A DNA stretch of 64,000 bases from Buxus sempervirens (lineage: Eukaryota; Streptophyta; Magnoliopsida; Buxales; Buxaceae). Location: NCBI GenBank assembly GCA_947561395.2, contig OX387184.1:15418205-15482204 (forward strand), in the 5' to 3' direction. The position numbers and the translations under genes were made by a program. Below, in pieces: positions 1,678 through 36,295 of the stretch (position 1 is its first letter; every line of letters begins with the position of its first letter). Below the pieces are notes generated by a model that was not told where the DNA came from, ran no database searches, and worked only from the letters and a program-made list of their open reading frames with translations.

Positions 1678-2893
1678 GGGAAAATTTCAAAAACATGCCA
1701 CTTTACAGCGATTATTACAAAAACATGCCATAAAGATGCAAAATTTCAAAAACATGCCACTTTTGAGAATTATTACCAGAAAGGGATCATTGCACGTTTG
1801 GGGAAATTTCAATGCCCAAAATGCCCTTGGATATAAGGGCATGTTTGCACGTGCCCCGCTCTCTCCCTCCTCTCCTCTCCTCGCCTCTCGCCCTCGTCCT
1901 GTGCGAGCGAAAAAACCCACCTTCGAAACCCTAAACCCGACGACGAACGCCGGCTAATCTTCTCAAAATCCGGCGAGCTAGGGTTCTTTCCGCGTTCTCT
2001 CCTCGTTCTCTCCTCTCCTCTCCTCTCGTCCTGTGCGGAATTTCAAAAAGTGAGAACCCTGCGAATCCCAACCCTAAACCCGAAGCCGACGACGAACGAC
2101 CGGCCAATCCCTTCTTCGCCGACGAGCTAGGGTTGTTGCCGGAGCAAGTTTGCTTCGTCTCCAAGCCCGACGAACCCCCACGAACCCCGACCATTCTCAT
2201 CTTCTTCTCCAGAAGGGCGAAACCCTCTCCTTCCCCCATTCCTCTCTTCGACGAAACCCTCTCGTTTCGTGCATTGTTTTCCTCTCCTCTCTGTTTGCAC
2301 ACATTGAGGAATTCGTCGTTGGAGAGCCACCGCGGTTGAAGTTTGTTGCCGTCGACGACCTGCTGTTCGTCGCCGTAGGGAGTGCTGCCGTTGGCGACCA
2401 GGTAGCTGCCGAGTGCCTCCTTTGAATTTTATTTTGCGAAATTGAATTTAAATTTGCGCATTTGCATATTTGCACATATTTAAATGGTAATCTTCTTGTA
2501 GAAATGTCTTAAATTTCAATGATTCTGTTGTTTGCCTTAGCGAAATGTGCCCTTTCGAATTTGAATATGAGTTATTTGCATGTTTTTCGAATATTGGCTG
2601 TATTAAATGTTTACACCATCGTTGTCCAACTATAGAAGCGAGCAAGCAGCTCCATTACACTGAAAAAAGTCCATGAATGATGTAGTGCTCTGAGTTGCGA
2701 ATGTGTTCTGAAGCCATTAAATTTTTTGCTTCCACTCTAGCAATGGCCTTGTATAACCATGCTTCTTTAGAAGTTCTTCCCAAATTCAATGAGTTTGTTG
2801 GCTCTACCGATGAGACTTCCAATACTTAACAGATTGTTATTGGAGGTTTTTGATCTCTTCTATTTTAAACTAAAAAGCAAACAGCACCAAACA
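1678..2893 (+). repeat. Left terminal inverted repeat of the MULE (1216 bp)
   Basis: It is the reverse complement of 21896-23100. By eye I find three substitutions and one 11-bp indel (a CTCCTCGTTCT duplication near 2005, present only here). The outer 110 bp holds three copies of AAAAACATGCC in one orientation, a likely transposase-binding cluster. The middle is CT-rich and leader-like. A plausible donor, CAG|GTAGCT near 2400, suggests that transcripts of the left arm start inside the TIR. Frames open in the TIR are mirrored in both arms and match no family, so I do not call genes here. Confidence 0.93.
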
Positions 2894-4804
2894 GATGTAG
2901 AGAGCTAGCTAGTGAGTAGTGACATAAATTTCAAACATTCACAAGTATGTTTTAGCTTACACAATTTGCATAGTATAAAAAGCAAATTAAATTTATCATT
3001 GTATTCGAACTGTAGGCATAAATCTTTGATTTTTATATTATTTGTCATTGAGTTATCCCAAGAAATGCCTTTTAGTACCTTCATCAATTCTCATATGTTT
3101 CTTGCAATGTCTTTTATTTCTGAAGGATTGCAATTCTGAATCACATTTTCAGCTAAACATTACAATGTCAAGAGATTGGTATTTTGTTGCCGAGTTGAAT
3201 TCCAGGGTTTCAATTAAGTATCCATCAATCCATCCTCTTAAGAATTCCCAATCAAATCCTAAGGCACCTACTTTTATTACCCAAAAAAAAAAGTTAAAAT
3301 AAATTTGGGAAATTCGATTGAGGAACTTATATAATCAAAATATGTGAAAAAATAAATTTAGAATATGGGTTTCTGCTATTTGGTAGGACTTCTATAAAGC
3401 CACCAATACATATAACCTATGCTTCGTGTCATGAAAGGGAAAACACTATCAAAGCAGTGCTATCAAATTTGTCTTCAACACGAATAAAACAAAATGAATA
3501 TTAAGAAAGCAGAGATGTAGAATGTTAACTTACTGGGTCAAACTCAAATGTATCCCTGGTGCACAGATTCATCTCAAGTACTAGCAACTTTTTAAAATCC
3601 TCAGAAACAGACAAGAAACAAGAAGGCCTAAAATTCAATTGTCTAAACAATTAGAAATATCAAGAAGAGATTCAATTGCCAAATGAAATAATGAAAATAA
3701 AATGAAAAAGCATCCAAGATAGAGGCGGGATCATAAAAATTAAAATGCAGCATAATGCACCTATCACCCATTATCCATGATGCTACTGATATGATCCAGA
3801 GGAGTTCAGTTTTGATCATTGCATATGTCTTGTGTTATTCGTACGGTGTGGTCTCAAGTTTTTTGTTTTTAACACTTTTCCTAGTATTTTGCCAAAGAAA
3901 AAGAAATTTGGAAAAGAGGCTGCTTTGTCCGCTTAGTAGATGTGTTTGTGGCTGCAACTTTGGACGAGCACATGGACAAGACGAGTCTTGCCAACTCATT
4001 TAACATTTGTAGAAATTGTCACACCGGGATTTCCACTGTGATGTATCTGGTCAGCCAAGCATCCTTGTAAAGAGATTCTGTTAATGTAGGAAAATGGTGT
4101 TTCAATTATTTTGTATTTTGTCATTGTTTTAGACTGGTGCCTCTGAAGGGTTGGGTTTATTGGTTATAGGGTGCTAAAGGCAATGTGAGGCCCTCTGAAA
4201 TTCTTTTCCCTCAAGGTCCAGTAGTTCTTTTATTGAAGCATGAAAATCCTTATTATTGGAAATTTAATCAACGTCATTAGTTTTGTTGAAACGCTACTTG
4301 CAGTCACCTAATATGCATTAAAAATAAGTTGTAACCCACTTTCTTGCAGTTATTTTATTGTTTGTGGATTAAGTTTTGTTTACCATTGATTTTTTGAGAG
4401 AAACATTCCGCATTTCATCTGCTTAAGCCATTAAAATGTAATAGGTGTTGGTGATCCAGTTTAAATGCAGTATGTTGCATTTAATTGGTCTCTTTTTCTC
4501 TTGTTTCTATTTCTGGTAGTTGTTTTGAAGTGAAAACCTCCTACTAGGGAAATAGAATTATAATTTAACTCTACAACCTCTATTTTTTATTTACAATTTT
4601 TTTAAGTCTAAAGTCTTCCCCAACATCTGTCTTCAATTAATTTGAGGGGATTTGAGGGAAATTGACTGACATACCTGATCTGCCTATGTATTCTTGTCTT
4701 GTGAGTCATATTTATTTTAGTATGTTGTAATATTTCAAAATATATTTTTTCCATTATATTTGAATATGAAGAATTTAATATTTCAATTCGCTGGACAGTG
4801 CACA
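2894..4804 (+). other. Transposase leader/intron region, no coding seen
   Basis: AT-rich sequence between the TIR and the transposase start, with no recognisable protein. An acceptor-like CAG lies just before the chosen ATG (4798). A leader intron running from the TIR donor near 2400 to there is plausible but unproven. Confidence 0.4.
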
Positions 4805-7094
4805 ATGTCAGATGAGATTCTATTCTGTTTTTGTCACATTGGAGGACAAGTAATCACCAAGGAAGATGGGTCAATGGGGTATAGTGGGGGAAGTAGTAAG
4901 GGTGTCGATCTAAATAGCAACATGAATTATACTGAGGTCGTTGAAGCTGTATGTCGGTTATTGAATATATCCCCGGTGAGTGTAAGTATGAAGTACTCGG
5001 TGAAGTTTGACAAGAGCGTTCTACTGGCACTCTCTGATCAAGATGCGTTATCGTACCTATTTCGCTACAACGAGGGTTGGGCCAACATTTATGTCTATAA
5101 TGATGAAGGATCATCACAAGAAAGAGACACTTGTCGGAGGTAATATTCATTAACCGTACATGGGATTATGTTTCCTCCATATTACATGTAATGATAGTCA
5201 TATATTGTGTAATTTCAGGACGAGTGTACCTTTAAGTGGTCACTCTGTACTTCCGTGCAATGACGATGAAGTAGAGGATCGGGAGACTCCGCTTCTTGAA
5301 AGTTGCACTGAAGTCAGCAGAGGTCCCCTTGTATCTAGCCTGTGGCAGGATGCAATTACTGAGGTCGACCAGATATTTAAGAGCCCTAAGGAGTTTAGAG
5401 AAGCAGTGTACAAGCATGCTATTGCCAATAGGTTTGAATATGTGATGAAAAAAAATTCTCCAGCATACATTAGTGTCCGTTGTGCAGGCACGGATTGTCC
5501 TTGGAAGGTAACGGCAAGACGTGTGAGGGATACGAGTTTTATGAGGGTGATGAAGTTTGTGAAGGAGCATAGCCACTCAGCCCAAGAGCAATTGTCTATG
5601 AAACCGGTTGTGAGAACGAAGTTCCTTTCTGGTGTGATTGAGAGGACAATTAGGAACACTCCAAGCTACTTGCCACGACAAATTGGCAAAGACTTTTATC
5701 ATGATCATGCAATGCCATTGACATATCAGCAATGTTGGAGGAGCAAGGAAAAGGCGAAACAGAGGATAGATGGTAATGTGGAGGAGTCTTATAAGTTCAT
5801 CCCATGGATGTGTGAACGGCTGCAAGAGAGTAATCCTGGCACAGTGGCAAGTTGGGCAGCAAGTGAAGATGGAAAATTTAAGCAATTGTTTATTGCTTAT
5901 GGATGTTCCTTGAGGGGATTTGCGATCGGTTGCAGACCACTGTTGTTCATTGATGGAAGTCATCTCAGTGGGCCATACCAGGGCACGTTGCTTTCTGCTA
6001 CAGCCCTCGATGCTGATGACGGCATGTTTCCAGTTGCCTTTGCAATTGTTAGTGCTGAGAATAATGAGGATTGGATGTGGTTTCTACAACTTCTTAAGTC
6101 ATCCATAGCCTTCAGAGAGGATTTAGTCATTGTAAGTGACAGGAATCAAAGCATTATAACTGCAGTAAGTGCTACCTTTGGCGCTAGGAGCCACTCTCAT
6201 TGTCTTCGACATCTGAAGGAAAACTTTAGTAAATTCGTTGGATCCTTTCATTTGAGGGAGGGAAAGAAATTTGCCTTACGGTTACTTGATGATATTGCTT
6301 ACGCAAGGCTCCCTCGGGACTACGATAAGGCATTGGCTGCCATGCATGAATATGCACCTGACTTAGCTGATTGGGTGAGGAGGAATGGGCCCGAACATTG
6401 GGCCAATTCATTGTTCCCTATGAAACGGTGGGATAAGCTGAATTCAAATTTAGCGGAATCATTCAATGCTTGGATGGTAGAAGAAAGGAAATTGCCTGTA
6501 ATGCGGTTTATTGATGCACATCGAGTGAAGCTTACAGAGCTATTGATGAGGAAGCGGAGGTGTATTGACACGTGGGTGTCCAATGTTGGTGGTCGAATTG
6601 ATGCCAAGATTCAGGAGAATCTCACTAGGGCATTGGGGCTGAGTGTCATTCAATGTGGGCAACATGAATATGAAGTTAGAGGTGATGAGATATATATCAT
6701 GGTGCATTTAATCCGTCGTGAGTGTACGTGCAAACAGTGGCAGATGGTGGGCATTCCTTGTGCACACGCATGTGCCGTCTTGAACTTGGTAAGGCTCAAT
6801 GTATATGACTTTGTCGACCTATGCTACCACAAGGCAACGCAAGGGTTGATATACGACGAATTGATGCATGCTGTGCCAACACATGACTTCCCCATGGTTG
6901 AGGACATCGACGTGGTTTCCATAGAAGATTCAAGTGAAACCCCATCTATCTCGTTCCCACCAAAGACAGCAAGACGTCCAGGGCGCCCTAAGCAGAAGCG
7001 CATTGAATCACAATTCCAAGACAAGCGACAGGTTCATTGTTCCAGATGCAAGGGTGTTGGACACAACCGAGCAAGTTGCAGAGCTTCAATATAG
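4805..7094 (+). CDS. MuDR-type transposase, full length
   Basis: This is the transposase that should recognise the TIRs and move the element. Two exons, 4805-5139 and 5219-7094, join in frame across a GT-AG intron to give 736 aa. Order of parts: a PB1-like N-terminal domain typical of plant MULEs (about 1-105); a MuDR DNA-binding domain with a CX4C...HXH zinc site (about 170-245); the MULE DDE catalytic domain with FIDGSH (D357), VSDRN (D419), the CLRH motif (C440) and a candidate acidic residue in LAESF (E525); a SWIM finger CTCKQW...CAHAC (from C614); an AT-hook-like RRPGRPKQKR; and a C-terminal CCHC knuckle (from C719). I start at MSDEIL because an acceptor-like CAG precedes it. An upstream in-frame ATG at 4760 would add 15 residues. 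No stop or frameshift is present, so it is a good candidate for an active enzyme. Confidence 0.93.
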
Positions 7095-7556
7095 AGACTG
7101 GCATGGTATAATGTGCAGGTTGTTGTAGTCCATCTTACATCTATTCATGCATCTAAGTTCTTGCTGTAGCCTGTAATTATCTTTGACTTACCGACGTCTA
7201 ATTTGCAGGTTGGCGTGATGTGTTTTGCTGGGTGTCGTGAAATGTGGCAACAATTGATCAACAACCCCACGAAACCTTATTTTTATTACTGTTTTATGAA
7301 GAACTGGTTTGCCACTTAGTCGTGGGTGCCGTAACATTGTGAAACATGTTGGTTGTGAAACATATTTTACTACCAACATTGGTGGTTTATTAGTTGCATT
7401 GTGAAACATGTTTTTGTGTTTATTATGACTTTGGGTAGTTGTAATGTTGCCTTACTTTGACTGTTTGTGTTTGTAATCTTACCTGGTATGTAATTACTAC
7501 TAACCTTCCTTGGTTTTAGTATATGTGCGTTATATTATTTTAGTTGCAGCTCAATA

Positions 7557-9450
7557 ATGGGTAAGAAGAAGAAGGATGTCGCGTCGGGTAGTTCTTCTAG
7601 TGGCCCATCGCGTCCTGTGAATGCCTTCCTCATATTCAGGTGATGAAGTATAAACAATTAAAGCATTGTTGTTTTACTGTCCAAATCCGAACTAAGTGGA
7701 TTTCTAATGTTATACTTACTTCTTACAGAAATGAGTACCTTGAAACAATTCGGAAGAGTAGGTCTTCCATAAATGTCACGACGGTGAGTTGGTTAAAGTG
7801 CTATATATTAGTTGATAATGTTTACAGTGTCAATTGTAATAAATACAGTTGCATTACTATTTTGTAGATCACGCAGGAGGCGCAAGGCCTATGGAAAGCG
7901 ATGGATGCTGGTGCGAAGCAGAAGTATAAAGATTTATACAATCAACGAATGACAGAGTGGTTGGAAGCGGCCCCGACTCCAACAGGAAAAATAAGAGGAA
8001 AGGTATAACTTCATTTCTTGAACATTATGAATGTTTTGTATGTAGTTGCGTTATACTAACACATGTTTATGTAAGTGTAGGCGTCTCTGGGAACAAGATG
8101 CTCCCCAAAGCGATTTGTGCATTTCGTGACTTTGCTTGACGAGGACCAGCGACGTGTAGTTGTTGAGATAGGATTTGGTTCTCTTCTCCAGATGCGCTGC
8201 ACATCCCTATGTGTGAAGCTTTGCGCCTGGTTAGTAGACCACATCGATGTACATAGTCGTAGTTTGAGGATTGGATCCTCGGTTGTCCCCATTACCCCCG
8301 CCGCTGTAAGTACCATCTTGGGCCTTAGGAGCGAAGGGCCCAAGGTTGTCATAGATGGTCCCATTGAGCAGCTTGCCCAGCTTCGGGCAAGCTTTACTTT
8401 TGATAGGCATGGCATAGCACTAAACGATATAGAGTCCAGATTGGCCACTCTAGGTTCCGGCCATGCCTTTCAACAGGCATTTGTACTATTTCTTGTGGGA
8501 TGTTTGTTATGCCCGGGTTCGAACCCACACGTGAAGCTTCATTTTCTGCATGCCGTAGCTAATATTAGTAGGGTTGGGCAGTACAATTGGGCTGCTTTTG
8601 TACTTGATGTTCTGTTTGATGAAATTGTGAAATATCGGGAGAAAAAAAAAACCAACATTGGTGGATGCCTCCTATTTTTACAGGTAATTTCGTCTCTGAT
8701 TTGTTTTTGGTTGTATTAGTTCAAGATGACAAGTATATGCTGAATACACCATGACTTCCCAAATTTTATTAATGTTTCAGCTTTTCTACTATGAAGTTGT
8801 ACGTGTTGGTGATATTGAATCAAGTCGTCCAACGCCACGTCTGGGGTGGTGGGACGACGATCGTGTGAAGTCACGGGAGAAGGCTGAGAAATCAGCAGGC
8901 GGGTATGGCAATGGGGAGGTAAAACATCATTTTCTATGCCCCTTCATATTCTACATGGTCTATTGTGGATGGACTATTAATATAGTGTAGTCGATGCAGG
9001 TGGTGGCACTGACGGTGCGTGCTGAGGAAGGAGTTGGAGATGTTGATGAAGGACCTATTCCAGGGATTGATCCGGTAAGACTTGTCACCCCCTACGTTGG
9101 TCGTCGGTGTTGTTGACATGTTTTAGAATGTTCTAAATTATGAATACTTTGTTGTTAGGCATCCCAACAAGCGTTGGATGGCATGCGTGCATCGTTGCGC
9201 ATGATGCAGGACGAGTATAAGATGGCTATCGCTTATGCATCCCAAATGGGTAGGCAAGATGGTATGTTCCGCACTAGATCTGGTTTCGAGAACCAAGTCT
9301 TGTAGATACGAGATTGTAGTAGAATTGTATAAATACTTAACATGTGCTTACTGTTCTTGTCATTCAAAATTGGTTTCGTTTCGTCTTTGTTCTTGATAGT
9401 TACTTAAGTTTGGGTTTGTGTCTGTGAATGCAGGTCCATCTGCAAACTGA
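7557..9450 (+). CDS. HMG-box protein fused to a plant mobile domain-like region
   Basis: Eight exons with GT-AG junctions stay in frame: 7557-7639, 7729-7783, 7868-8002, 8081-8683, 8781-8918, 9000-9074, 9159-9261 and 9434-9450, giving 402 aa. If the last intron is retained, the frame stops at 9305 (411 aa). After a lysine- and serine-rich start, residues about 17-80 read as an HMG-box: RPVNAFLIFRNEY, then aromatic and charged positions ending in GLWKAMDAGAKQKYKDLY. HMG-boxes bind and bend DNA. Residues about 100-310 resemble the plant mobile domain/DUF1985-type region often encoded in plant MULEs (GFGSLLQM, ITPAAVSTILGL, IGGCLLFLQLFYYE). The C-terminus is acidic, then helical. It follows the transposase by 462 bp on the same strand. 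A role in transposition is inference. The intact frame over eight exons argues against decay. Confidence 0.85.
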
Positions 9451-9938
9451 GGAAGAAGACTGGCTTCGTGAAATCTCCATCAAGTTATCATTTGGGAGTA
9501 AAGGCTGCAGGTAGCATGGTGCTCCCAAGTGAATGTTTCGTATACTATTATATTTTTGTTTTTTTCCCCCCTTCCTACGTCATAATACCAATGAGCAAGT
9601 TTTTTTTGACATTTGTAATTCTTTCTTTAAGTACTTGAGATGTCTTGCACATTAAAACTGAGATTCCTTTTCATGAGATATTGTATATGTATTGTGATGG
9701 GCGCTCTTTTAATTTATGGGTTCACACTTCACAGAAGGAAACTAAGAAGGCCACAGCTGTTACATGGATGGAATTATCGATGATATTTAATATATTTATC
9801 CACCACCTTGAAATTGAATAAAGAGGTCCATGATGCTTCCTTTTATCTTGTTGTCCTTTTCCAAAAAAGGTATTGAACACCAATTGGGGAAACCTAAATT
9901 CAGTGTGTGTTTGTTCCCTCTGCAAGGACTAATTACAG

Positions 9939-10027
9939 ATAATGTTAGGTTCTTGTTCCCAGCCTTCGGAGGCTTATTATTTGGATATGATATTGGTGCT
10001 ACCTCCGGGGCTACTATCTCTTTGCAG
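9939..10027 (+). pseudogene. Captured exon of a D-xylose-proton symporter-like gene
   Basis: One exon, with an acceptor (TTACAG) and a donor (CAG|GTACTG), encodes the first membrane helix of a sugar transporter: LFPAFGGLLFGYDIGATSGA, then TISLQ. This is close to plastidic D-xylose-proton symporter-like proteins as I know them. The following exon of that gene is absent. A bZIP exon comes next instead. It is a gene fragment carried by the MULE, not a transporter gene. Confidence 0.8.
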
Positions 10028-10102
10028 GTACTGGTACATGAGATCCTTCAATGGAGTCCTTTCATTCACCTTTTGTTGAATCACCCAATTATTTGTTTAC
10101 AG

Positions 10103-10925
10103 GATGAAAGGGAGCTTAAGAGGCAAAGAAGAAAGCAGTCTAACAGGGAATCAGCACGACGTTCGAGGCTTAGAAAGCAGGTTAGAGATGTTTTTGGATT
10201 TTTACTTACTCATAGACAAGAAGATTAATAACTTATATTAGTTGTTCTCTGGTAGCATCTATGCTGATTCCATGAATGCCCTCAATTGCAATATGCCAAT
10301 TAGTCATGTGTTTTATGTAATATGAGGGCACTTATGTAAGTTGACACACTTTCTCACCTACTTGATCTGTCCATATGCAATCTAGCAAATGCATGGAAAA
10401 TTTATATAGTTACCTATGTAATCGATTTAATTACCTGCTACCACACCCCCCAACCCCCCCGCGCCCACGTGCAACATCCTCTTTCGGTCCTTCTATTAGT
10501 ATTGATCACTCAAATGTCATTAGGCTGAGTGTGAGGAACTTGCTCGTCGAGTGGAAACACTAAAAGAGGAGAACACTTCCCTCAGAGATGAACTGGGGCG
10601 TATAAAAGAGGAATGTGAGAAATTGGCATCAGAGAACACCTCTTTAACTGTAAGTTTTGCATATGGTTCTGATATATTAGTTTTTTCCCCCAAGCATGAT
10701 ACTGATTCCATATAGGGCTACTGTCTTAATATTCCATATTTTTCTGATGTCTGATCTTTCATATTTTGCTACTCTTTTGGTGGATTTATTTGTAACTTGA
10801 TGCTTTCTATCATACATATGTAAGAGAAGCTTCAGAAGTATCAAGGACAGAACTCAGTAGAAGATGAGAGTAATGGTCACCCAGATGCTGATCCCCAAAC
10901 AACAGCTAACATAGATGCAATCTAA
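10103..10925 (+). pseudogene. Captured 3' half of a GBF-type bZIP gene
   Basis: Three exons, 10103-10180, 10524-10649 and 10827-10925, join in frame and end in a stop. They encode the basic region (RKQSNRESARRSRLRKQ), a leucine zipper with heptads L-L-L-I-L-L, and a polar tail ending ANIDAI. This matches G-box-binding-factor bZIPs. The proline-rich N-terminal half is missing. Upstream is the symporter exon in a compatible phase, so a spliced chimera is possible. Introns are kept, so capture was at the DNA level. Confidence 0.8.
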
Positions 10926-13346: not shown

Positions 13347-14093
13347 TCATTCGTCCAGTTTAACTTTGTCAATGTCGTGAAGCAACTCACGGTATATGTC
13401 GGACATCCTTCTCGCATGATCACGCTCCTCCTGCAATAGCCGTCGTTCTACTTCCCATGCCCTTGGCTGTATTTGTTCAGTGTTTTCTGCATCGCATGAA
13501 TTCGACGATTCACCCTTTTCTACCCCAACTTCATTCAACCAGGAGAAGAAATGGCAGCTTTGTTCGCCCTGGAAATACAATGACATGAAAATCAATTAGG
13601 AAGTCCCCATTGTGAAAAATATCTCGTGTGGGAGGAACGTATTTGAGTGCTAAACAACTCCACACATACTTCAAAAGGACATCGGTAAAATCTTCTCCCT
13701 TTGTTTGTTGGAGTTTTTGCGGTTAACACACGGCATGGTCCCCTCCCACATTCACACAGTAATAACTCATCGCACCAAACAAAATACCCACATCCATTCC
13801 CACCATTGCCCTGTAAGAAATAATGCATTTAATTTAGACAGTCTTATAATAGTTGAATGGCCAGATTGGTAAAAATGCATACTTACAGACGATGGACAAG
13901 TGAAAAAAAAGCGCCCTGGATTACGTGAGGTGTGGGAGAGTTTCCTTTTAAGCATCCCTTTCCCGCATGGACATGGGACACGAGCGTGGGGATCGGTAGC
14001 CTTTGCCGAAACTTCCATTCTTCCTTCGCACAAAGGGTAGCGCATAAGTGACTCGCTTGACACACTTGTATTTATAAACGAGCCGGAAGGCAT
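13347..14093 (-). CDS. Small protein with two GRF-type zinc fingers and a coiled tail
   Basis: Three exons on the minus strand, 14093-13887, 13810-13670 and 13568-13347, join in frame (GT-AG) to 189 aa. Finger 1 uses C41, C43, C66 and C76 with the NPGRFFF core and GYFVWCDE end. Finger 2 uses C88, C90, C113 and C121 with NKGRRFYRCP and HFFSWLNE. Each finger is interrupted by an intron just before its last cysteine, so the pair looks like an exon-level duplication. GRF fingers in APE2, NEIL3 and TOP3A bind single-stranded DNA or forked ends. The C-terminal 50 residues are charged and helical (VERRLLQEERDHARRM). I start at MPSGSF because upstream the frame runs into the minisatellite. Action in transposition or repair of the excised element is inference. 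Confidence 0.82.
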
Positions 14094-14128
14094 GCCCACG
14101 TGAAACACGTTGGTTGTATTAGTAGATG

Positions 14129-15316
14129 CGAGCACGCAAAATATGAGGGCACTTGACCTATTTACTAAGGACTCGACCGTACTTGACATACGACTCAAGG
14201 ACACCAACATAGGACTTTTAGTAGGAGGGACTCGAGCAATTTTACATGGGACGCGAGCTAAGTATATGTGGGACTCAAGCAATTTTACATGGGACTCGAG
14301 CTAAGTATACGTGGGACTCGAGCAAATTTACATGGGACTCGAGCAATTTTACATGGGACTCGAGCTATTTTACACCGGACACGAGCTAAGTATACATGGG
14401 ACTCGAGCAAATATACATCGGACTCGAGCTAAGTATACATGGGACTCGAGCAAGTATACATTGGACTCGAGCTTAGTATACATGGGACTCGAGCAAATTT
14501 ACATGGGAATCGAGCTATTTTACACCGGACACGAGCTAAGTATACATGGGACTCGAGCAAATATACATCGGACTCGAGCTAAGTATACATGGGACTCGAG
14601 CAAATTTACATTGGACTCGAGCTAAGTATACATGGGACTCGAGCAAATTTACATGGGACTCGAGCTATTTTACACCGGACACGAGCTAAGTATATATGGG
14701 ACTCGAGCAAATATACATCGGACTCGAGCTAAGTATACATGGGACTCGAGCAAATTTATATTGGACTCGAGCTAAGTATACATGGGACTCGAGCAAATTT
14801 ACATGGGACTCGATCTATTTTACATCGGACACGAGCAGTTGGATACATGGGACTCGAGCAAATTTACATCGGACTCGAGCTATTTTACATGGGACTCGAG
14901 CAAATTTACATCGGACTCGAGCTATTTTACATGGGACTCGAGCAAATTTACATCGGACTCGAGCTAAGTATATGTAGGACTCGGGCAATTTTACATGGGA
15001 CTCGAGCAAATTTACATCGGACTCGAGCTAAGTATATGTAGGACTCGAGCAGTTTTACATGGGACTCGAGCTACATATACGGGAGACGACTCGACGTGGT
15101 TTACATGGGACTCGAGTTATTTTACATGGGACTCGAGCTAAGTATATGTAGGACTCGGGCAATTTTACATGGGACTCGAGCTTAGTATACGTGAGTGCCG
15201 TAGCTAATTACATGGGACTCGAGTTATTTTACATGGGACTCGAGCTAAGTATATGTAGGACTCGAGCAATGTTACAAGGGACTCGAATTATTTTACATGG
15301 GACTCGAGCTAACGAT
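14129..15316 (+). repeat. Minisatellite array of 21-22-bp units with CTCGAG
   Basis: Several dozen units of the form CATGGGACTCGAGC plus 7-8 variable bases (AAATTTA, TAAGTATA or TATTTTA) repeat from about 14216. Degenerate units appear from 14129. Two sub-types alternate, giving a 42-43-bp higher-order period. Nearly every unit keeps the palindrome CTCGAG. Stop codons are lacking in several frames only because of the repeat. The array lies directly upstream of the GRF gene. Confidence 0.95.
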
Positions 15317-15895
15317 AGGCGGGACCACGGGACTGGATCATATCCCCTTCACATAAATCTAAACAAAGTAAAAGTTCAAATATCCTGAGCCCAAGAATTT
15401 TTATCAAACTTCAACTTTTCAAATAGCCTGAACCCAAGGTCTAAGAGCCTGAGCCGAGCTCGTTTACAGCCTTACCAAACTCAAATTTTAACCACCTTCT
15501 GTTAATACCACCCACGTTTTTTTTTTCTCCAGCTGTTCACGAAGATAACAAGGAACGAATACTGATCTGACCTCCGCGTAATTGGACAACCCATTCTCTT
15601 ACTAATCAGCCATCACAGCAGCATGCCGACCTGTTTTTCAGTCCTCGGCTCTAAGCAGTTAAATTTTGAGGGATGTGAAGCGTATCCATTTTCTTTAGAA
15701 TTTACATAATGATTACAATTTTGCTATGAAGAACCTTTCAGAAAATATAAGACCATGCTCGTTGACAATTCATCAAATTTGTTAATAGGATTATTTTTCT
15801 GCCATTGGAATCAGCACCATCGATAAGGTCATTATGCTGTCTCCAGAGCTGTGTATATCTTCCTGCTTTTTATAGGGTTTCGGTGTGTGCTCTTC
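15317..15895. other. MULE interior; partial duplicate of ABCB last exon
   Basis: No gene. The stretch 15787-15860 is a diverged duplicate of 15922-15985, part of the last ABCB exon (both hold a GTATATCTTCCTG- or GCATATCTTCCTG-type run). Confidence 0.5.
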
Positions 15896-16615
15896 TCACA
15901 CTCTTGCTTCAACTCTGACGTTTGAATCAACCCCGTCAATAGGATTATTTTGCTGTCCCCATAGCTGTGCATATCTTCCTGAATTTGATAATAAAACTTC
16001 ATGTGGCCCCTGTTCATGCACCTTCCCATTCTCTAGAACAATAACCTGGAAAAAAATAAATAAATAAAAAATGGAAAATAAAGTAAACAACGAACAAGAT
16101 AAGCCAATTGAAAAGAAATCATATCTGTACACACCCACACACAAGAAGCCAACCCACAACCACTGCCGCTGCAGCACCACCAACACCGCCCTCCTCCCCC
16201 CCACCAAACACAAAACACCACCCCACCACCAAAAAAGCAAAAAATTCAACCACACACCCCCACCACCAAACCCAACCACAGAAAAAAAAAAAAGGAACAC
16301 CAATTCCCTGCAGAATCAGTAACAAGGAAGATAATATGCAGATGGTGGTTAGTCTAGTCTAGCTTTCTCTACACCCAGTTATCAATCTACTCAGATAAGT
16401 CAAAAGCGAGAACCATCAGAAAAGAAAAAAAAACACACAAATACATTTATAACCAGTTCCCCCAGCAAGAAATGCTCACGTCATCACACTGCATAGCAGT
16501 TGTAAGCCTATGAGCAATGAATATGGATGTCCTATTATTCGCTAGGGATTTCAGTGCACTTAATATCTCTGCTTCTGTTGTACTGTCTAGAGCACTCGTA
16601 GATTCGTCACAAAGC
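15896..16615 (-). pseudogene. Captured 3' end of a mitochondrial ABCB (ATM-type) transporter
   Basis: Two minus-strand exons, 16615-16480 and 16045-15896, encode the end of an ABC nucleotide-binding domain. The Walker B/D-loop region reads LCDESTSALDS where EATSALDS is expected. The H-loop IAHRLTTAMQCD follows, then VLENGKVHEQGPHEVLL and GRYAQLWGQQNN, ending in a stop. The wording is that of plant ATM1/ATM3-class half transporters. The membrane domain, Walker A and signature motif are absent. It is a MULE-borne gene fragment. Confidence 0.8.
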
Positions 16616-17530
16616 CTAATTGGAAACAGATCAACAGGCAATATTATAATCTGCTGAAAACAATTGTTTTCCTCTTCCTTTTGCCATCCATAAGAACTAA
16701 AATAAACCAAACTTTCAGAAAAGCCTGAAGAATCATTACAGATTTGACATGAGTAGAGGCACAATAAAACAACAGGAAAGAACAAAAACAGAGAAACGTA
16801 AATAATCATGTTATCATGAAGCTAGTGTGATGTTAACATATGACATGGAGAAAACAATGAAGAAGTCGATTTAAATTTTACAAGTCGAAACAATATTTGA
16901 CAAAATTGAACTGCCTCAACTCAAAAGATCTCTGAATATTTCACAATATACTTAAGAAGGGCTTCAGATATTTCGAACGTGAGGAAGAAAAATCCATTCC
17001 ATACACATGATTTAAGTAATGGCAGGATCTTTCACGTGACTGAACCAAAAGTTGATAATGTACAGCTAAAATCACTAATATTGAGGGAAAAAAGTATGCA
17101 TACCTCAGACAATATAATCCACGGAATGGGTTCCATTCCCAACGACTATGCTATTACAAAAGCCTGAAAGATAAAAGTTATGTAAAAATAAGGTTACAAA
17201 TCATTGACAGAAAAAAACTAACAAGACTTCAGAAAATTTCACATAACTAGACATACCACGAGTCCAACTACAGACAGTATGCTCATAATACTATGAAAGT
17301 GAGGATCTTCTGATACAACACTCTGACAGCAATAGGAACAGCAGAAAAGGCATTTCAAAAAGAAGAATATAAATCGCTTCTACTAAATTCCTGGAATTTT
17401 CATAATCTAATACAAAAGTAAACAAAAATTAGAAGAAGGTCACAAAATTAAGAGACTTTAGAAAGAATGCAACTCAAGAAGGTCGAAATTCGTACGCATC
17501 CACATTCTCAGGAAGGTTTAAGCATCTCAA
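16616..17530. other. MULE interior, no gene seen
   Basis: Possibly intron sequence captured with the ABCB fragment. I find no upstream ABCB exon in it. Confidence 0.4.
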
Positions 17531-20220
17531 TTAGAACGGGAACTTGATTGTGTTTGCAGGGTGGAGCAACAGGTATGCTAACAATTCATGCCGAAAGTGT
17601 CCAATATTTTCCTGTTACAATTTAAATGAAACACTTGCTAAAAAAAATTCTGTAAGTCTTAACCACATCATGTTGCATAGGAAAATATATACTTGCCTGC
17701 CCAAACCTAGTCGACAATTGATGCCCATCCCAATATTCCATGTACTTCATTACGAATACACCACAATCGTCACTACACAACAAATGGAAAAGATCAAGAG
17801 AAGGTAGACATGGCAAATAACTAGAAAGTACAGGTGTTATTGGGGGTAAGGTAAAGCTATAATTCAATGTAGTAATTATTCATGATCGAACAATAATGAT
17901 TTCATGTTTTTTCCCACTGTATTTTAAGCATGTAATATTATTGCAACACCGAGGATACTTTTAATTTCATTTCAAGATTTATTCTTCAATAAATATCACC
18001 ATTATTCAGATGATAATACCCAATGAATCTAGCTAAAATAATTTTAATAATTGGAATTACAAATAAAATCAAAATAAATTAGACTCCACCAATACGTATC
18101 TTGCTAAAGAATTTTAATAATTGGAATTATTTATATCATAATACCCAATGATATACCTATAATATTTGAGTTTCAATCTCAACGACTAAAAGAATGTGGC
18201 ACCCCGGAACCAGGTCGACCCATATCAGGTTTATATTGGCTCCTGGGCGCTAGCTTAGGGCCCAAAGTAATGAAAACCAACTTCAGAACTAACCAAACAC
18301 ACAAAATAACCTCTTAAATTTTTTTCAGAAAAACGGCTATATAACGCCTGTAAATAGGAGTATGGGCTAAGCCCTCAAACACAAATGACCACCTGATAAA
18401 TACAATTTATACATCCACGCAAAATAACTAAACCATCCTAATATACAACTGTATAATCTCACTAAGTTTACATCGTCTCTCCATCTTCCCATCTACACCA
18501 TCTTTGAGCTCCACAGGTTGCTTATTTGGAAATAAGCAAATAAGCAACCTAAGGGCATTATCCAATATCTCTATAATGGTCATGTAATTTAAGGTAACAT
18601 ATGAGTGATAAAATTGGGAACTTACGAAGTACTTTGACAGGGCACAGACACAGGCACCACTGACCACTCCTGCACTCTCTTGTCACAGCCACGTTTAAGC
18701 TCCTCAAAGACTTTTGAAAAAAAAGTTGTCTGCAATGAAAATTGAACCATTCAATATCAATTTATATAATACATTGAAACTATATAGCTTTTTACATACC
18801 AATTTCGTTGATACAGCACGGTAATCACCAGGCCGACTCTTCGGTACCGAATCTAACACTTCGATCCGTTGGTCCTTGATGTTCAAAACAACCAAGAACC
18901 AATGGTTCCTCCTCAAGATCGGTAGGAAAACCTATCAAATGACAATACAAGGTGTACTAGGCGTTAATAATTATGTAAATGAGAGTAATAAAATATTCGA
19001 AATTTATCATACCATATGACATCGAAGCAAACTACATCCTACAACATCTCGTGAAAATTGACTTCGTACAGCATCTTCTACAGTCACTGTTCCTTTTAGG
19101 ATTGCAGCCTGTAAACCACAAGTACAATATATTAGTCCGCTGTAGTACTCCATATGCATTGATAATTAATTATTCTAAGCGTCCTAACATACAATCCTAT
19201 ATACGTACAGATGTGTAGGGTGTAATGTAATGACGACGGATAGTTGATGCATGTTCCCGCGTAGATTTGACACAAGCAAGCACATACATGTGCATAACCT
19301 ATTCCACAATCACCTGAGTGAGAAAACTAATCCAAGTACCATTGTAACCTAAAACAAATGATACACTTTTCGATACAAATAACTTACCAGGTCGCTAACC
19401 CTTCGTCGTGGAAAAAGACCAAGTAGATCGAATCGAGTCGCAAAGCAATCACCGAAATCAACAAGTTTTTCCCTGCATGCGTCAATTCCACTTATAAGGG
19501 AAAAAAAAAAAAAACAACAACCAACTATAAACACAATATTGAATGGTGTAAATCTGTTAATTACTCTCAATTACAGAAGATATATACTTACATCGGCGAC
19601 AACCCTGGTGTCATGGCATACATCCACGCTTTTGTCTCTCGTTCAGGTAATGGGGGGAATCTATGCGTCTCGACAAAGGGTGACCTCAATTTATGTACAA
19701 GGTGCTTTACTCGCTTCCCCCTACCTCTGGGACAAGATTGCATCGTACTTGGACCCTCAGATGTATTTGCGGGTTCATCAGTTGGCACACTTCCAGCAAA
19801 AGGAGGTGATGAAAACTCTGCGTGTGCATCAACAGTGCCATCGCCATCTGGAGGTGGTGGAGGAGGCACATCATCATTACAAGGCCAGTCGGGCTCCGCA
19901 TCTGGAGGTGGTGGAGGAGCCACATCATCAGTACAACGCCAGTCAGGCTCAGCATCTGGCGGTGGTGGATGTCGATGGGAGTGGCGTAAAGAGCCAGCAA
20001 AGTCGGTACAATGCCGTGTGAAGTCACGGGCAAAGCCGATCATACGAACAATGTGACTTCGTAATACCTACGACAATGAAAACATATTGATGAAAGGAGA
20101 TGTATAGAAGAATGTGTAAAATAAAAGAAATAATGCAATGGCTTGCCTTACCGGATCTATATCTGTCGGCACGTGAGTCACATCATCTGCCGCCCGCTCC
20201 TGATCCCGTGCAAAATCCAT
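17531..20220 (-). CDS. Ulp1-like (C48) cysteine protease of the MULE
   Basis: Nine minus-strand exons stay in frame: 20220-20152, 20067-19592, 19472-19388, 19298-19209, 19108-19013, 18931-18800, 18729-18626, 17772-17697 and 17611-17531, giving 402 aa. Eight introns are present; the last has a GC-AG border (GCAAGT). The N-terminal half is low-complexity, with repeats of the type DAEPDW..DD.PPPPPPD. The C-terminal half is a C48 fold: NHWFLVVLN (H282), EVLDS (D299), PCQSTSDDCGVF with Q348 and C354 six residues apart, then MKYMEYWDG. That completes the catalytic triad and oxyanion glutamine of SUMO/Ulp1 proteases. Intron 7 (853 bp) may contain an inserted repeat. Whether it cuts SUMO is unknown. 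An additional 5' exon cannot be excluded. Confidence 0.88.
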
Positions 20221-21895
20221 GCCTAAGGCACATAACATTCACACACAAAATATGATTTTAAACTTTAATACAAGATGCCACCTTGCCTCATTCCTGTTTA
20301 ATAGGCCTTTAAGTTACATCCATTCCATATGGAAAATGCCTGAATTACAGATGGTGAAGGGTCTCTTCTGCCATGTTTTCTGGCCACAAAATGCCTGAAC
20401 TAGGTATCAAATTTGGCAAGCTATGCCTTTTTCACTATGATTCTCTGTATTTGTTTAATTCTTATCTGGTTGTTTGTTCCTTGTAAAAAACTTTTATTTC
20501 ATTTCTTTGTTTGCTTTTATGCATTTTTCATTGCTTGATAGATTTATTTCTGCAACAACTTATTGGCTGGTTGTTCATTTTAAGTTGCCTGTATTGGTAA
20601 TTGAAATTTTCAGGTGATTCAAAGGAAATTAATTGATGTAGCCACACCATTAACCCCCATAGATGGTAACATTGGACCTGATGCTGTTCATCTTCTTGCT
20701 TTAAAGGAGGGTTGTGCTGCTTTTTGTTGGTTGCTTTGTTATATATATTTGTTGAAAGTCTTTAGTCATTGGGCAACTTGTCAATTCAGATTTCTTATGA
20801 TCCATATTCTTGTTTTCATTGTTTTCAATGTTATCTTTTGGTTTATTACATCTATTAATTCGTTTTGGAGATTGAGATTGGATGATAGGAGAGGTGGGTT
20901 TTGATTCAGATTCAGCAGAAAATAATGATATGAGGAGGAGGAGGTGATGGGCATAACAGCATCTACTGCTGATAAACATTTGCAGTAAGGCTTGATGCTT
21001 TGTGCAATGCAGAAAATAACTGATTTTGGCATGGCAGTAGCAGTAAGGTTTAATTCCTCTCTCTATCTTTAATGGGTTTATTTATGTTTATTTAACCAAA
21101 AAATTAGACGGTAAAACAGAGGTAATAGATACACTTATTTGTGCTAAAAGTATTTACATTTACTTAATTATATTGTGGTCAATATCTACTACAAAAATTG
21201 AGGTGCAGTCTCCTATCAAGATGTCCTGAGTCTAAGCCTGAGAACACAAAGGTGGCAATGTTAAATTCAGGCCACTTTGTGAAACTACCCCTTTGGAAAT
21301 AGGGATCTGTTATCAAAGGTATCATCACCATCAGATCTTTGATTTGGCACAAAGGTTATAAAGTCTTATCTACTGCAGCTGATAGGTTCCAGGTCATGGG
21401 TCATTACCTGACACGAGGCTAATATGATGGTTGTGATCTATGACGACAGTGAAAGTATTTGTGGTGGTTGCATGGGGAGTGGAGCATTCACCCTTAAAAG
21501 AAGGCATGATTGAAGGCTTTGTTGGTATGGAGTAAGGACTAGGTAGGCGTCGGTCATGTTCCATATTTCTTAATGCCTCACAACACACTCCAAAAGCCTA
21601 TTATCATGTTCCATATTTCTTATGCAACTGACCTGATTGGGGGAAGAGGAGGACTCAAAATGTTATGTGGCTGTTAAATATACCTTTTATTTACTAAATT
21701 GTAAAGACTATGGTTGCTCTCTCTTTGCCTCTCTTATAAGATGAGAAATTTTCATTCCTTTTGATTTGAATTGTCACAGGATATGAAGAAGATACAGCAA
21801 AAGCAAAAGTTCAGTTTTTGGTCCAAATGAGGAGAAAAAACCAGCATCTCAAGCAACCCTGAATAGCCTGCACAAGAGATATCCGAAGATACTAT
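20221..21895. other. MULE right-arm leader region
   Basis: Between the protease start and the right TIR. It probably holds the leader of the minus-strand transcript. It also contains a plus-strand exon-like stretch (20614-20709). Confidence 0.4.
20614..20709 (+). pseudogene. Possible captured exon of an unrecognised gene
   Basis: After an acceptor-like TTTTCAG, 96 bases read openly and protein-like (QRKLIDVATPLTPIDG then GPDAVHLLALKE), and the frame then turns hydrophobic and random. The composition suggests a real exon taken from a host gene. I do not recognise the family. Confidence 0.4.
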
Positions 21896-23100
21896 TGTTT
21901 GGTGCTGTTTGCTTTTTAGTTTAAAATAGAAGAGATCAAAAACCTCCAATAACAATCTGTTAAGTATTGGAAGTCTCATCGGTAGAGCCAACAAACTCAT
22001 TGAATTTGGGAAGAACTTCTAAAGAAGCATGGTTATACAAGGCCATTGCTAGAGTGGAAGCAAAAAATTTAATGGCTTCAGAACACATTCGCAACTCAGA
22101 GCACTACATCATTCATGGACTTTTTTCAGTGTAATGGAGCTGCTTGCTCGCTTCTATAGTTGGACAACGATGGTGTAAACATTTACTACAGCCAATATTC
22201 GAAAAACATGCAAATAACTCATATTCAAATTCGAAAGGGCACATTTCGCTAAGGCAAACAACAGAATCATTGAAATTTAAGACATTTCTACAAGAAGATT
22301 ACCATTTAAATATGTGCAAATATGCAAATGCGCAAATTTAAATTCAATTTCGCAAAATAAAATTCAAAGGAGGCACTCGGCAGCTACCTGGTCGCCAACG
22401 GCAGCACTCCCTACGGCGACGAACAGCAGGTCGTCGACGGCAACAAACTTCAACCGCGGTGGCTCTCCAACGACGAATTCCTCAATGTGTGCAAACAGAG
22501 AGGAGAGGAAAACAATGCACGAAACGAGAGGGTTTCGTCGAAGAGAGGAATGGGGGAAGGAGAGGGTTTCGCCCTTCTGGAGAAGAAGATGAGAATGGTC
22601 GGGGTTCGTGGGGGTTCGTCGGGCTTGGAGACGAAGCAAACTTGCTCCGGCAACAACCCTAGCTCGCCGGCGAAGAAGGGATTGGCCGGTCGTTCGTCGT
22701 CGGCTTCGGGTTTAGGGTTGGGATTCGCAGGGTTCTCACTTTTTGAAATTCCGCACAGGACGAGAGGAGAGGAGAGGAGAGAACGCGGGAAGAACCCTAG
22801 CTCGCCGGATTTTGAGAAGATTAGCCGGCGTTCGTCGTCGGGTTTAGGGTTTCGAAGGTGGGTTTTTTCGCTCGCACAGGACGAGGGCGAGAGGCGAGGA
22901 GAGGAGAGGAGGGAGAGAGCGGGGCACGTGCAAACATGCCCTTATATCCAAGGGCATTTTGGGCATTGAAATTTCCCCAAACGTGCAATGATCCCTTTCT
23001 GGTAATAATTCTCAAAAGTGGCATGTTTTTGAAATTTTGCATCTTTATGGCATGTTTTTGTAATAATCGCTGTAAAGTGGCATGTTTTTGAAATTTTCCC
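21896..23100 (-). repeat. Right terminal inverted repeat of the MULE (1205 bp)
   Basis: Inverted copy of 1678-2893; see that entry for the differences. It ends GAAATTTTCCC directly before ten A. It should supply the promoter and leader for the minus-strand genes by symmetry with the left arm. Confidence 0.93.
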
Positions 23101-23214
23101 AAAAAAAAAAGATTCCACCAGAGACAAAAGGTTTTAAAAGTAGCTTTTTTTTCCTGCTTTTTCCGTACATTGGTATTGACGGGACCTACACCAATCCCCC
23201 TCCCCCATTGAATG

Positions 23215-23414
23215 AACATGGTCTAGACTAAGTTCATATATACTGTATGTAAATTTTCGGTTCGGATCGGATACATGTATATCCGAATTTGGATCCAATT
23301 TTTTTTGGATCCAAAATTCTAGATCCGTATCCGAATCACGGATCTAAATCCTATATCCGAATTCGGTAATTTCGGATCGGATTCGGATATATATCCGATC
23401 CATTGCCAGTCCTA
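23215..23414 (+). mobile_element. Truncated hAT-type MITE, right half
   Basis: Matches the right half of the MITEs at 37136-37598 and 42933-43474: many GGATCCGAATTCGG-like runs, ending ATTGCCAGTCCTA. The left half and its TIR are missing. Confidence 0.65.
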
Positions 23415-23786: not shown

Positions 23787-25069
23787 CATTATTTACCCCT
23801 TTTGGGGAAGCGTAACTTTGTCACAAGGACTGCGGGCCACACGCTCTGGGAAAATGATTGACTTCTTAGATGTCTTAGGTTAAGGGGTGCTTATTGGACC
23901 AGCCGACACGGCCCACTGTGAAAACAGGTCGTGTGGTGCCTGGACCGTGCCGTGCCGGGCTGTGGCCTGCAGGCCAACGGGATGCTTGCAGGCCATGCGT
24001 AAAAATTTTAAAAAACAAAAAGTTAAAGAAGGTTTTTGAAAAAAAAAAGCATTTACATAGCATACATGTTCTACAAAAAAAAATAAAGAAGGTTTTGCAG
24101 AACATGGATATAGGGATGCTTGGCGGGCCGGTCGGGCACGGCCCAGGCACGATTGGGGCGTGCCAGGCGGGCCTGGCGTGCCATGAGCCGCCCGTGCCGG
24201 GGGCCAGGCAGGCCGCGGCACGCCGGGGTATTAAACCCCTTTTTTTTTTATAAAAACTGCAGAAAATGCCAAAAAATCACAAAAAATACCCAAAAAATCA
24301 CAAAAAATTCTGAAAAATGCTTTTATTATTCACAAAATTGTCTTACACATATTGGGATAGATTTTGCTCAAAAAAAATATAAATTCATTAATTATCACAA
24401 GTACAATTACAACTTTGCAAAGAATACATAATTACTTGAACAAATAATACTGCATCACTAAAGTATAAGCACATCCCAACTAGGTTGGCACCCACTCATT
24501 TATCTTTCATTTGCAGTTTAAAAAAAATAAAAATAAAAAGTAAAGTTCCTATACTTTGATTACAAAAATTATAACAAAACTTAGACTAATCTGGATGACT
24601 AAATTCATTAAGATTTAAATCATCGAAGTCTCCAACAAGTTGATCATCTTCAAATTCCTGATCTCTCAGTTCTGTTCTTAACCAATCTATAAGACTGACA
24701 CATACTTGCACCATCTCCGGCGTTAATCTGCTCCTGTAGTCGTCCACGGTTCGTCCACCTGCGCTAAAAGCTGATTCCGATGCAACTGTGGACACCGGAA
24801 CCGTTAGTAGATCACGTGCCATGGCGGCAAGCACAGGATAATTAACCTGATTTTGCTTCCACCATGTCAAAATGTTAAAAGAATTATGTTCTTCCATAGT
24901 ATTGAAATTTATTGGGGGGCTTTCTAAATAAATCTTTAATTCAGATGATCCCCATTACTAGATGCTGGTTGTTTTCCCTTTCTTCTCCCACTTAAAAAAT
25001 TCCAAGGGGAATTATCTGGTAGTGCTTGTTGGGTTTAAGTATGACCATGTATACTACTGCTAGTATCAT

Positions 25070-36033: not shown

Positions 36034-36095
36034 CCTATATAGGAATGAAGAGGCAAAAATGAAATAAAAAAAAATTAATAACTTTGTAAAAGCCT

Positions 36096-36295
36096 TTTTT
36101 TTTTTTTTGAAACTTGGGGTATCTGGGCCAGCTTTCGCGCACCACGACTAATCCCCAAGGGCTTGTGCAGTCCCCCCGTCCCACACAAACCAGGTAATTA
36201 CCAGGCCAAAGGCCCTGGGGGTAGCCTCAAAGAATTGATATCACCTGAGAAGTTTTGAACCTAAGACCTTGGAGGGAGCATACCCCCAGGCCCCA
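36096..36295 (-). repeat. SINE, reverse orientation
   Basis: Reverse-strand relative of the SINE at 161-387, read from a T-run through CTAATCCCCAAGGGCTTGTG to CCCCAGGCCCC, lacking about 20 bp of the 5' end. AACTTTGTAAAAGCC before it and AACTTTTTAAGAGCC after it look like an aged 15-bp target duplication. Confidence 0.7.

Follow-up and report, generated by a model that had tools for sequence, protein, structure and literature searches.

Among the described plant MULEs closest to the locus reported here, which we cite from excerpts of the papers concerned, are those that carry a Ulp1 protease. Mutavine of grapevine and CUMULE of melon, the latter known through citing papers, share with it a MuDR-like transposase, a downstream Ulp1 gene and TIRs. 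Grapevine TIR-MULEs (Mutavine) carry Ulp1 in both orientations, melon TIR-MULEs carry ULP, and the 16.2-kb Mutavine-18, with TIRs of 230–263 bp, is marked as including a ULP region (PMC2528002). The VANDAL/Kaonashi (KIU) elements of Arabidopsis have three coding genes, one of them anti-silencing, and some carry Ulp1 (PMC5735166, PMC13317346). Their VANC protein binds motifs in noncoding tandem repeats and thereby demethylates its own family (PMC5735166), and according to a review some VANDAL VANC genes carry Ulp1 (PMC13317346). Plant mobile domains (PMDs) occur inside MULEs of grasses and Amborella (PMC5418596).

Judged from its sequence, a 21.4-kb segment of Buxus sempervirens DNA (1678–23100 of the window, the whole 64-kb stretch that was analysed) is a complete-looking MULE, and we estimate at about 0.95 the probability that it represents a MULE encoding four genes of its own. 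The linkage of these genes, which encode a mudrA-like transposase, a protein with an HMG box and a PMD (HMG-PMD), a double GRF zinc-finger protein and a Ulp1 protease, was observed at one locus; we consider it somewhat more likely than not that the four-gene set is recurrent. All four had been named by the first-pass annotation, and family profiles found each with its named domains. The annotation also knew of no described element with exactly this set and long TIRs. TIR-MULEs with Ulp1 and MULEs with a PMD had, however, already been published (PMC2528002, PMC5418596, in excerpt). Among the literature matches listed, none was found for a MULE that carries HMG-PMD as a gene of its own, a GRF gene or all four genes together; the excerpt of PMC2528002 mentions neither an HMG-PMD nor a GRF gene for Mutavine or CUMULE, and the text of PMC6446971 contains no occurrence of Ulp1, ULP, GRF, mobile domain, protease or accessory. 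Parts of the element have known relatives, and the combination appears new among the matches listed. In the excerpted PMD-C MULEs the transposase itself carries the fused PMD; here the domain belongs to a protein distinct from the transposase, with an HMG box at its N-terminus. Pack-MULEs resemble the element in that their MULE ends enclose intron-containing fragments of host-like genes, but they rely on a transposase in trans and measured up to 7 kb in the excerpted founding study (PMC6431247), while this element has its own mudrA and spans 21.4 kb.

The borders of the element comprise the following features:

1678–2893, + strand: left TIR, 1,216 bp, starting with GGGAAAATTTC, with CAAAAACATGCCA at 1688, 1718 and 1747
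21896–23100, − strand: right TIR, 1,205 bp, inverted, with CAAAAACATGCCA at 23078, 23048 and 23019
1668–1677, no strand: A10 flush with the left end, probable TSD of 10 bp (or 9 bp)
23101–23110, no strand: A10 flush with the right end, second copy of the probable TSD

As the first-pass annotation had noticed, the 1.2-kb TIRs are nearly identical, with three substitutions over 1,205 aligned positions and one 11-bp indel; blastn gave 98.8% identity over 1,223 columns, frayed inner edge included. Its report of A10 at both borders was also borne out, the tracts directly abutting the ends at 1678 and 23100. The 13-bp motif CAAAAACATGCCA was found six times in the window, three times per element end and at offsets of 10, 40 and 69 from either end, and the terminal GGGAAAATTTC is identical on both ends. 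The excerpted range of MULE TSDs is 8–11 bp (PMC6305189). Because the A10 on both sides is a low-complexity homopolymer, the length of the TSD cannot be fixed within 9–10 bp. Mutavine, as excerpted, differs in its TIRs (70–710 bp where present, against 1.2 kb here) and its TSD (9 bp, against A10), and the TIRs of VANDAL are degenerate (PMC10398659, in excerpt), in contrast to the near-perfect ones of the Buxus sempervirens element. No further TIR copy was found by blastn within the window. An 11-bp direct repeat, GATTCCACCAG, also brackets the insertion, for which we offer no explanation.

A single copy is visible and an A10 duplication is weak evidence alone, which would suit inverted repeats arisen by a segmental inversion or duplication with no link to transposition, an alternative that the annotation had itself named. 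Such an origin is very unlikely, since the match ends at A10, the motifs have the same offsets and a MULE transposase is enclosed. The identical terminal GGGAAAATTTC, the three equally spaced 13-bp motifs on both ends and the direct A10 outside all speak against it. We read the element instead as a TIR-type MULE of the MuDR kind, recently moved or recently homogenised, that would be potentially autonomous. MURA would bind the repeated CAAAAACATGCCA at the ends and move the element by cut-and-paste, with a 9–10-bp duplication.

Two of the genes lie on the + strand:

4805–7094, + strand: mudrA-like transposase, exons 4805–5139 and 5219–7094, 736 aa
7557–9450, + strand: HMG-box and PMD gene, 7–8 exons, about 400 aa
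7557–7639, 7729–7783, 7868–8002 and 8081–8683, + strand: HMG-PMD exons 1–4
8781–8918, 9000–9074, 9159–9261 and possibly 9434–9450 (the last uncertain), + strand: HMG-PMD exons 5–8

In family profiles, the transposase matched MULE (PF10551, 1.1e-16), DBD_Tnp_Mut (PF03108, 1.5e-16), SWIM (PF04434, 6.5e-7) and Transposase_mut (1.1e-5). Both the CX2CX4HX4C knuckle and the DX18DX15E motif are named for mudrA proteins in the excerpt of PMC6305189. The knuckle is present at the C-terminus; DX18DX15E occurs at residue 357 (D357/D376/E392) and again at 108, probably by chance, and this double occurrence means that the motif is not specific. D357/D419/E525, assigned from conserved-looking motifs of mudrA, is a candidate alternative acidic triad. 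Against solved structures there was one weak match, to the Mutator-family transposase 6xg8 (E = 0.064). Pattern searches with exon 2 gave no match in viral contigs and six in bacterial and archaeal contigs, none of the six encoding a relative; both collections are uninformative on linkage in plants.

In the spliced HMG-PMD protein, the HMG_box (6.6e-12) is spread over three exons, and joining the exons improved the PMD from 8.9e-11 in a separate ORF to 1.5e-12. The PMD match (PF10536) scored 47.8 bits against a curated cut-off of 34.9 and covers profile positions 44–218 of 347 only. A family-profile match of the PMD exon to DUF1985, the domain present in VANC, stayed below the cut-off (E = 0.2), and none at E ≤ 1 was found in the spliced HMG-PMD and Ulp1 proteins, a search in which HMMER filters may hide weak matches. 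For this reason HMG-PMD was dropped as a VANC homologue, and the functional analogy alone was kept.

The other two genes, and a tandem array beside one of them, are as follows:

13347–14018, − strand: double GRF zinc-finger gene, exons 13887–14018, 13670–13810 and 13347–13568, 164 aa
14227–15309, no strand: tandem array of 1.1 kb, about 50 units of 21–22 bp around GGGACTCGAGC
17531–20220, − strand: Ulp1 (C48) protease gene, 8 exons, 372 aa
20152–20220, 19592–20067, 19388–19472 and 19013–19108, − strand: Ulp1 exons 1–4
18800–18931, 18626–18729, 17697–17772 and 17531–17611, − strand: Ulp1 exons 5–8
19845–19969, − strand: 54-bp coding tandem repeat in Ulp1 exon 2, giving a PPPPPDAEPDW-type peptide repeat

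In separate ORFs the GRF matches stood at 1.3e-10 and 4.1e-5, and joining the exons improved them to 9e-25 over two stretches; the N-terminus of this protein may be longer than modelled. The Ulp1 match to Peptidase_C48 likewise went from 7e-6 and 0.11 in separate ORFs to 1.1e-14 when spliced, covering profile positions 81–181 of 217 (PF02902). The alignment of the product with SENP2 (2e-9) takes in the His, Asp, Gln and Cys positions, and these four residues are in the expected places, with their motifs at residues 250–327. It thus carries the C48 signature, and SUMO cleavage is predicted. For a possible ninth Ulp1 exon, four candidates in the interval 19109–19387 were tried, and all of them break the frame.

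The four genes form two inward-facing pairs, with mudrA and HMG-PMD on the + strand and GRF and Ulp1 on the − strand. The element resembles maize MuDR in its mudrA and in this layout of convergent genes running inward from both TIRs. In MuDR, transcription runs inward from either TIR and converges in the middle; here, transcription from the left TIR would serve mudrA and HMG-PMD, and that from the right TIR Ulp1 and GRF. No obvious counterpart of the MuDR gene mudrB was recognised in the element. The first-pass annotation counted 2, 8, 3 and 9 exons and our models have 2, 7–8, 3 and 8, which agrees within the uncertainty, since the sequence fixes neither the last exon of HMG-PMD nor a possible ninth exon of Ulp1. 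With a codon table trained on mudrA and applied to the six frames of each other gene, the proposed frame scored best in every case: 0.161 for HMG-PMD, 0.096 for GRF and 0.191 for Ulp1, against best alternatives of −0.082, 0.002 and 0.034. Two donor sites are weak (3.2 in Ulp1 and 4.1 in GRF; the 90th percentile of all regional GT is 4.8). No Rfam family matched in the window at gathering thresholds.

With three substitutions in 1,205 TIR positions there has been little time for decay, so that an element inactivated recently could look much the same, a dead relic whose open frames merely reflect recent insertion. We find this improbable: the four spliced frames are open across 5.0 kb of coding sequence, Ulp1 keeps its catalytic residues and the transposase retains candidate acidic residues.

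The element also carries pieces of host-like genes, which, like the tandem array, the first-pass annotation had overlooked:

9926–10027, + strand: probable sugar transporter exon, about 34 aa, weak (E = 0.047 and 0.083)
10103–10925, + strand: 3' part of a bZIP gene with introns kept, exons about 10103–10180, 10524–10649 and 10824–10925, bZIP_1 at 3.5e-23
15896–16614, − strand: 3' part of a mitochondrial ABC transporter gene (ABCB25-like), exons about 16480–16614 and 15896–16045 with the intervening intron
15798–15865, − strand: partial second copy of the last ABC exon, 79% identical, downstream of the ABC stop codon

The ABC fragment matched ABCB25 (7n58_A), which we take to be the same as ATM3, at E = 1e-41; the bZIP is presumably of group G/GBF. 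From these matches, two, and probably three, host-gene fragments appear to have been captured (ABC, bZIP and probably sugar transporter). Because introns are retained in the ABC and bZIP pieces, capture was at the DNA level. Ten ORFs from unassigned parts of the element matched no family above the curated cut-off. Since the family scans covered 30 of the 122 ORFs listed (at least 60 aa), other captured pieces may be hidden. Counting these fragments and the roughly 50 array units, part of the 21 kb is cargo, and the ABC, bZIP and sugar-transporter pieces would be passive, transduplicated passengers.

The presence of such pieces bears on the origin of HMG-PMD and GRF, which might themselves be host genes captured by chance, with only mudrA, and perhaps Ulp1, native to the element. 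The PMD proteins of MULEs have been inferred to be captured host genes (PMC5418596, in excerpt), and transduplication is common in MULEs (PMC2528002, PMC13317346, likewise). Even so, we regard chance capture as unlikely. HMG-PMD and GRF look like whole genes, each running from a start to a stop codon with splice sites in consistent phase and frames that stay open, unlike the ABC and bZIP pieces, which are 3' gene ends only; their codon preference is also mudrA-like, although host genes might match as well.

The first-pass annotation took the four proteins to form one transposition system in which the accessory proteins assist the transposase. As direct helpers of transposition, HMG-PMD would bend and bridge the ends, GRF would bind exposed single strands and Ulp1 would deSUMOylate the transposase or repair factors. 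HMG boxes bend DNA, GRF fingers occur in DNA-repair proteins, both an HMG_box and a double GRF are present, and all four genes point inward between the TIRs. We nonetheless consider this role rather unlikely: ULP is missing from other, closely related MULE families (PMC2528002, in excerpt), so that MULE transposition in general needs no ULP. Counter-silencing, in our reading, fits the literature at least as well as assistance to the transposase, and an anti-silencing use was proposed by the authors who studied MULE PMDs (PMC5418596, in excerpt). We put forward such a role for the accessory genes tentatively. The proteins would not cut DNA; they would prevent silencing of the element or prepare its chromatin. 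HMG-PMD would act as a DNA-binding targeting factor, and Ulp1 would deSUMOylate, at the element, either chromatin or proteins of the silencing machinery; the GRF protein may bind repeat DNA or single strands.

The array lies upstream of the GRF gene, 0.2 kb from the start codon, and its core motif occurs once elsewhere in the element, in GRF exon 1. VANDAL target motifs, as excerpted, also sit in noncoding tandem repeats, but those bound by VANC are spread across several noncoding regions, whereas the Buxus sempervirens element has one array (14227–15309) whose motif is not spread. This confinement, the nearly perfect TIRs and the failure to detect DUF1985 weigh against the proposed explanation. 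A further difference from VANDAL is that Ulp1 and PMD lie in separate genes. A self-contained kit unlike VANC may be envisaged, in which HMG-PMD at the element's own repeats (array and/or TIRs) would bring in Ulp1 and GRF to remove silencing that depends on SUMO, whether of the PMD-protein or of the MOM1/PIAL kind, the PIAL proteins being SUMO ligases; as a specific scheme this is improbable. Host PMD proteins (MAIN, MAIL1) serve transposon silencing, so that a PMD borne by a transposon would act on this pathway as a decoy or a saboteur. Element, mechanism and accessory roles taken together are our best explanation, to which, as a whole, we give somewhat less than an even chance.

Plant MULEs carry Ulp1 genes repeatedly, with a precise role there that has been stated to be unknown (PMC13317346), and the function of MULE-borne PMDs is a question raised in print (PMC5418596), both in excerpt. 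With Ulp1 and PMD in separate intact-looking genes, a near-perfect element and an array broadly similar to those targeted by VANC proteins, the locus offers a defined test object. It is also a transposase-bearing MULE with host-like gene ends, roughly three times as large as the biggest Pack-MULE (7 kb) in the founding study, as excerpted. Expressing each gene by itself would make it possible to measure what it does to methylation, SUMO and excision, and the combination could serve to test how such elements escape silencing.

Repeat search, blastn, and alignment delimited the two terminal inverted repeats (TIRs) of the element, a Mutator-like element (MULE) of ~21.4 kb at 1678–23100. Its genes were modeled with a simple in-house splice-site score followed by a profile check, and exon ends are predicted. 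From left to right, the features are:

1678–2893, left TIR, 1,216 bp
4805–5139 and 5219–7094, + strand, transposase gene mudrA, two predicted exons, 736 aa
from 7557, + strand, gene with an HMG box and a plant mobile domain (HMG-PMD), seven exons and one uncertain last exon
just upstream of the bZIP piece, + strand, sugar-transporter-like piece, 34 aa, weak match (E 0.047 and 0.083)
10103–10925, + strand, bZIP piece, three exons from the bZIP region to the stop codon
− strand, double GRF zinc-finger gene, three exons, 164 aa
14227–15309, tandem array upstream of the GRF gene, 1,083 bp, ~50 units of 21–22 bp of two or three alternating types
15896–16614, − strand, ABC transporter piece, two exons, 94 aa
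− strand, C48 (SUMO-type) protease gene Ulp1, eight exons, 372 aa
21896–23100, right TIR, 1,205 bp, inverted relative to the left

The first-pass annotation had described near-identical TIRs of ~1.2 kb with ten A's (A10) on both borders, and both features were recovered. The alignment of 1,222 columns revealed three substitutions and one 11-bp indel between the left and right copies, the other three differences lying at the inner edge, beyond the repeat proper. So few differences point to either a recent move or homogenization of the TIRs; because the two TIRs of a MULE may already differ when it inserts, the divergence was not turned into years. Each end carries the 13-bp motif CAAAAACATGCCA three times, with offsets of 10, 40, and 69 from the terminus, and no further exact match occurs in the 64-kb window. 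A10 directly adjoins both ends as a direct, not an inverted, repeat, the orientation that a target-site duplication should have, with a length of 9 or 10 owing to the homopolymer. The only two + strand copies of GATTCCACCAG in the window flank the insertion (1651–1661 and 23111–23121): TTTACC separates the left copy from the left A10, and the right one starts immediately right of the insertion, at 23111. At least 11 bp were common to 4 of 2,000 random 50-bp pairs drawn from 25000–63000. Our guess is that these flanks are the scar of an older small insertion or excision at the target, for example a truncated poly-A retro-insertion.

Also in the neighborhood, on the − strand (24589–31964), are parts of a hAT transposase, namely a BED finger (31410–31964), an RNase-H-like domain (30468–31097), and, 5.5 kb from the latter, a dimerization domain (24589–24954). 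Two dispersed repeats were found outside the element by blastn, one direct (23209–23386 and 37370–37559, 84%) and one inverted (193–386 and 36095–36295, 80%).

The four genes form two pairs, each pointing toward the middle of the element, as would be expected if the TIRs at both ends are promoters. The TIRs of Mutator elements are described as containing promoters and transposase binding sites (PMC3310237). The mudrA product matches the MULE, DBD_Tnp_Mut, and SWIM family profiles, in agreement with the two-exon transposase gene first proposed, and has a C-terminal CX2CX4HX4C knuckle. Judging from its family membership, this transposase would move the element by cut-and-paste. Its acidic triad has two candidate readings. 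One is D357/D419/E525, which we take from the usual layout of MULE transposases; the other is D357/D376/E392, which fits the DX18DX15E motif given for mudrA proteins (PMC6305189), a pattern that matches once more, at 108.

The domains claimed for the three accessory genes were likewise matched by family profiles: in HMG-PMD, an HMG box (6.6e-12) spread over three exons, which also matches solved HMG structures (best 6.3e-6), and the mobile domain (1.5e-12); in GRF, the GRF profile (9e-25); and in Ulp1, Peptidase_C48 (1.1e-14). With respect to the exon counts of eight, three, and nine, that of GRF held, that of HMG-PMD depends on its uncertain eighth exon, and Ulp1 was modeled with eight instead of nine. 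When Ulp1 is aligned to SENP2 (2e-9), His, Asp, Gln, and Cys are in the expected positions, the Gln and Cys being on separate exons united by an in-phase splice across an ~850-bp intron. Two donors are weak, scoring below the 90th percentile for all GT in the region (4.8): that of this intron (3.2, the lowest in all models) and one in GRF (4.1). With a codon table trained on mudrA, the proposed frames of HMG-PMD, GRF, and Ulp1 each outscored the five alternative frames. Ulp1 exon 2 contains an in-frame 54-bp tandem repeat (19845–19969, 2.3 copies, 91%) encoding a proline-rich peptide repeat; for VANC, the anti-silencing protein of VANDAL MULEs, variable regions with tandem peptide motifs are reported (PMC5735166).

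CTCGAG occurs 38 times in the array and twice in the remainder of the window, and CG density is 62 per kb in the array versus 26 per kb over the whole element. Allowing at most one mismatch, GGGACTCGAGC occurs 44 times in the window (0.22 expected by chance): 42 times in the array, once in GRF exon 1 (13975), and once at 63379. A two-sequence comparison aligned 15 bp of GRF exon 1 to array units with a single mismatch (14 of 15, E=0.013); the array could thus have arisen by expansion out of this exon, or both may have a common origin.

Our preferred reading, drawn by analogy, is that the accessories would act against silencing of the element. In VANDAL MULEs, VANC is reported to demethylate its own family by binding motifs within noncoding tandem repeats (PMC5735166), and some VANC genes carry a Ulp1 domain (PMC13317346). 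An anti-silencing use has also been speculated for PMDs captured by MULEs (PMC5418596; PMC8616336). Counting against this reading, family profile searches of the element proteins found no DUF1985 above threshold, the TIRs are near-perfect, unlike those described for VANDALs (PMC10398659), and, within the element, the array motif is found at a single place, save for the GRF exon 1 site. Alternatively, the accessories may help the transposase directly, or their genes may be present by chance capture.

As for novelty, the claim that no described element was known to combine this exact set with long TIRs stood in part. No MULE with an HMG-PMD gene, a GRF gene, or the four-gene set was found among the matches listed from a largely open-access literature collection, but Ulp1 genes in TIR-bearing MULEs were already published (PMC2528002), as were PMDs inside MULEs, there fused to the transposase (PMC5418596). 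Relatives may exist unannotated or in other literature.

The ABC, bZIP, and sugar-transporter pieces, which, like the tandem array, the first-pass annotation had overlooked, are partial host-type genes, which suggests that they were captured. The first matches the mitochondrial transporter ABCB25 (1e-41), aligning to residues 638–729 of the 739-aa chain of entry 7n58 with its intron retained; the second matches bZIP_1 (3.5e-23); and the third has a plausible exon edge. Directly after the stop codon of the ABC piece is a second partial copy of its last exon (15798–15865, 79% over 68 bp), which could stem from slippage, from more than one capture, or from a donor that was itself duplicated. With pieces of host-type genes inside a transposase-bearing element, the element therefore looks like a hybrid between an autonomous MULE and a Pack-MULE.
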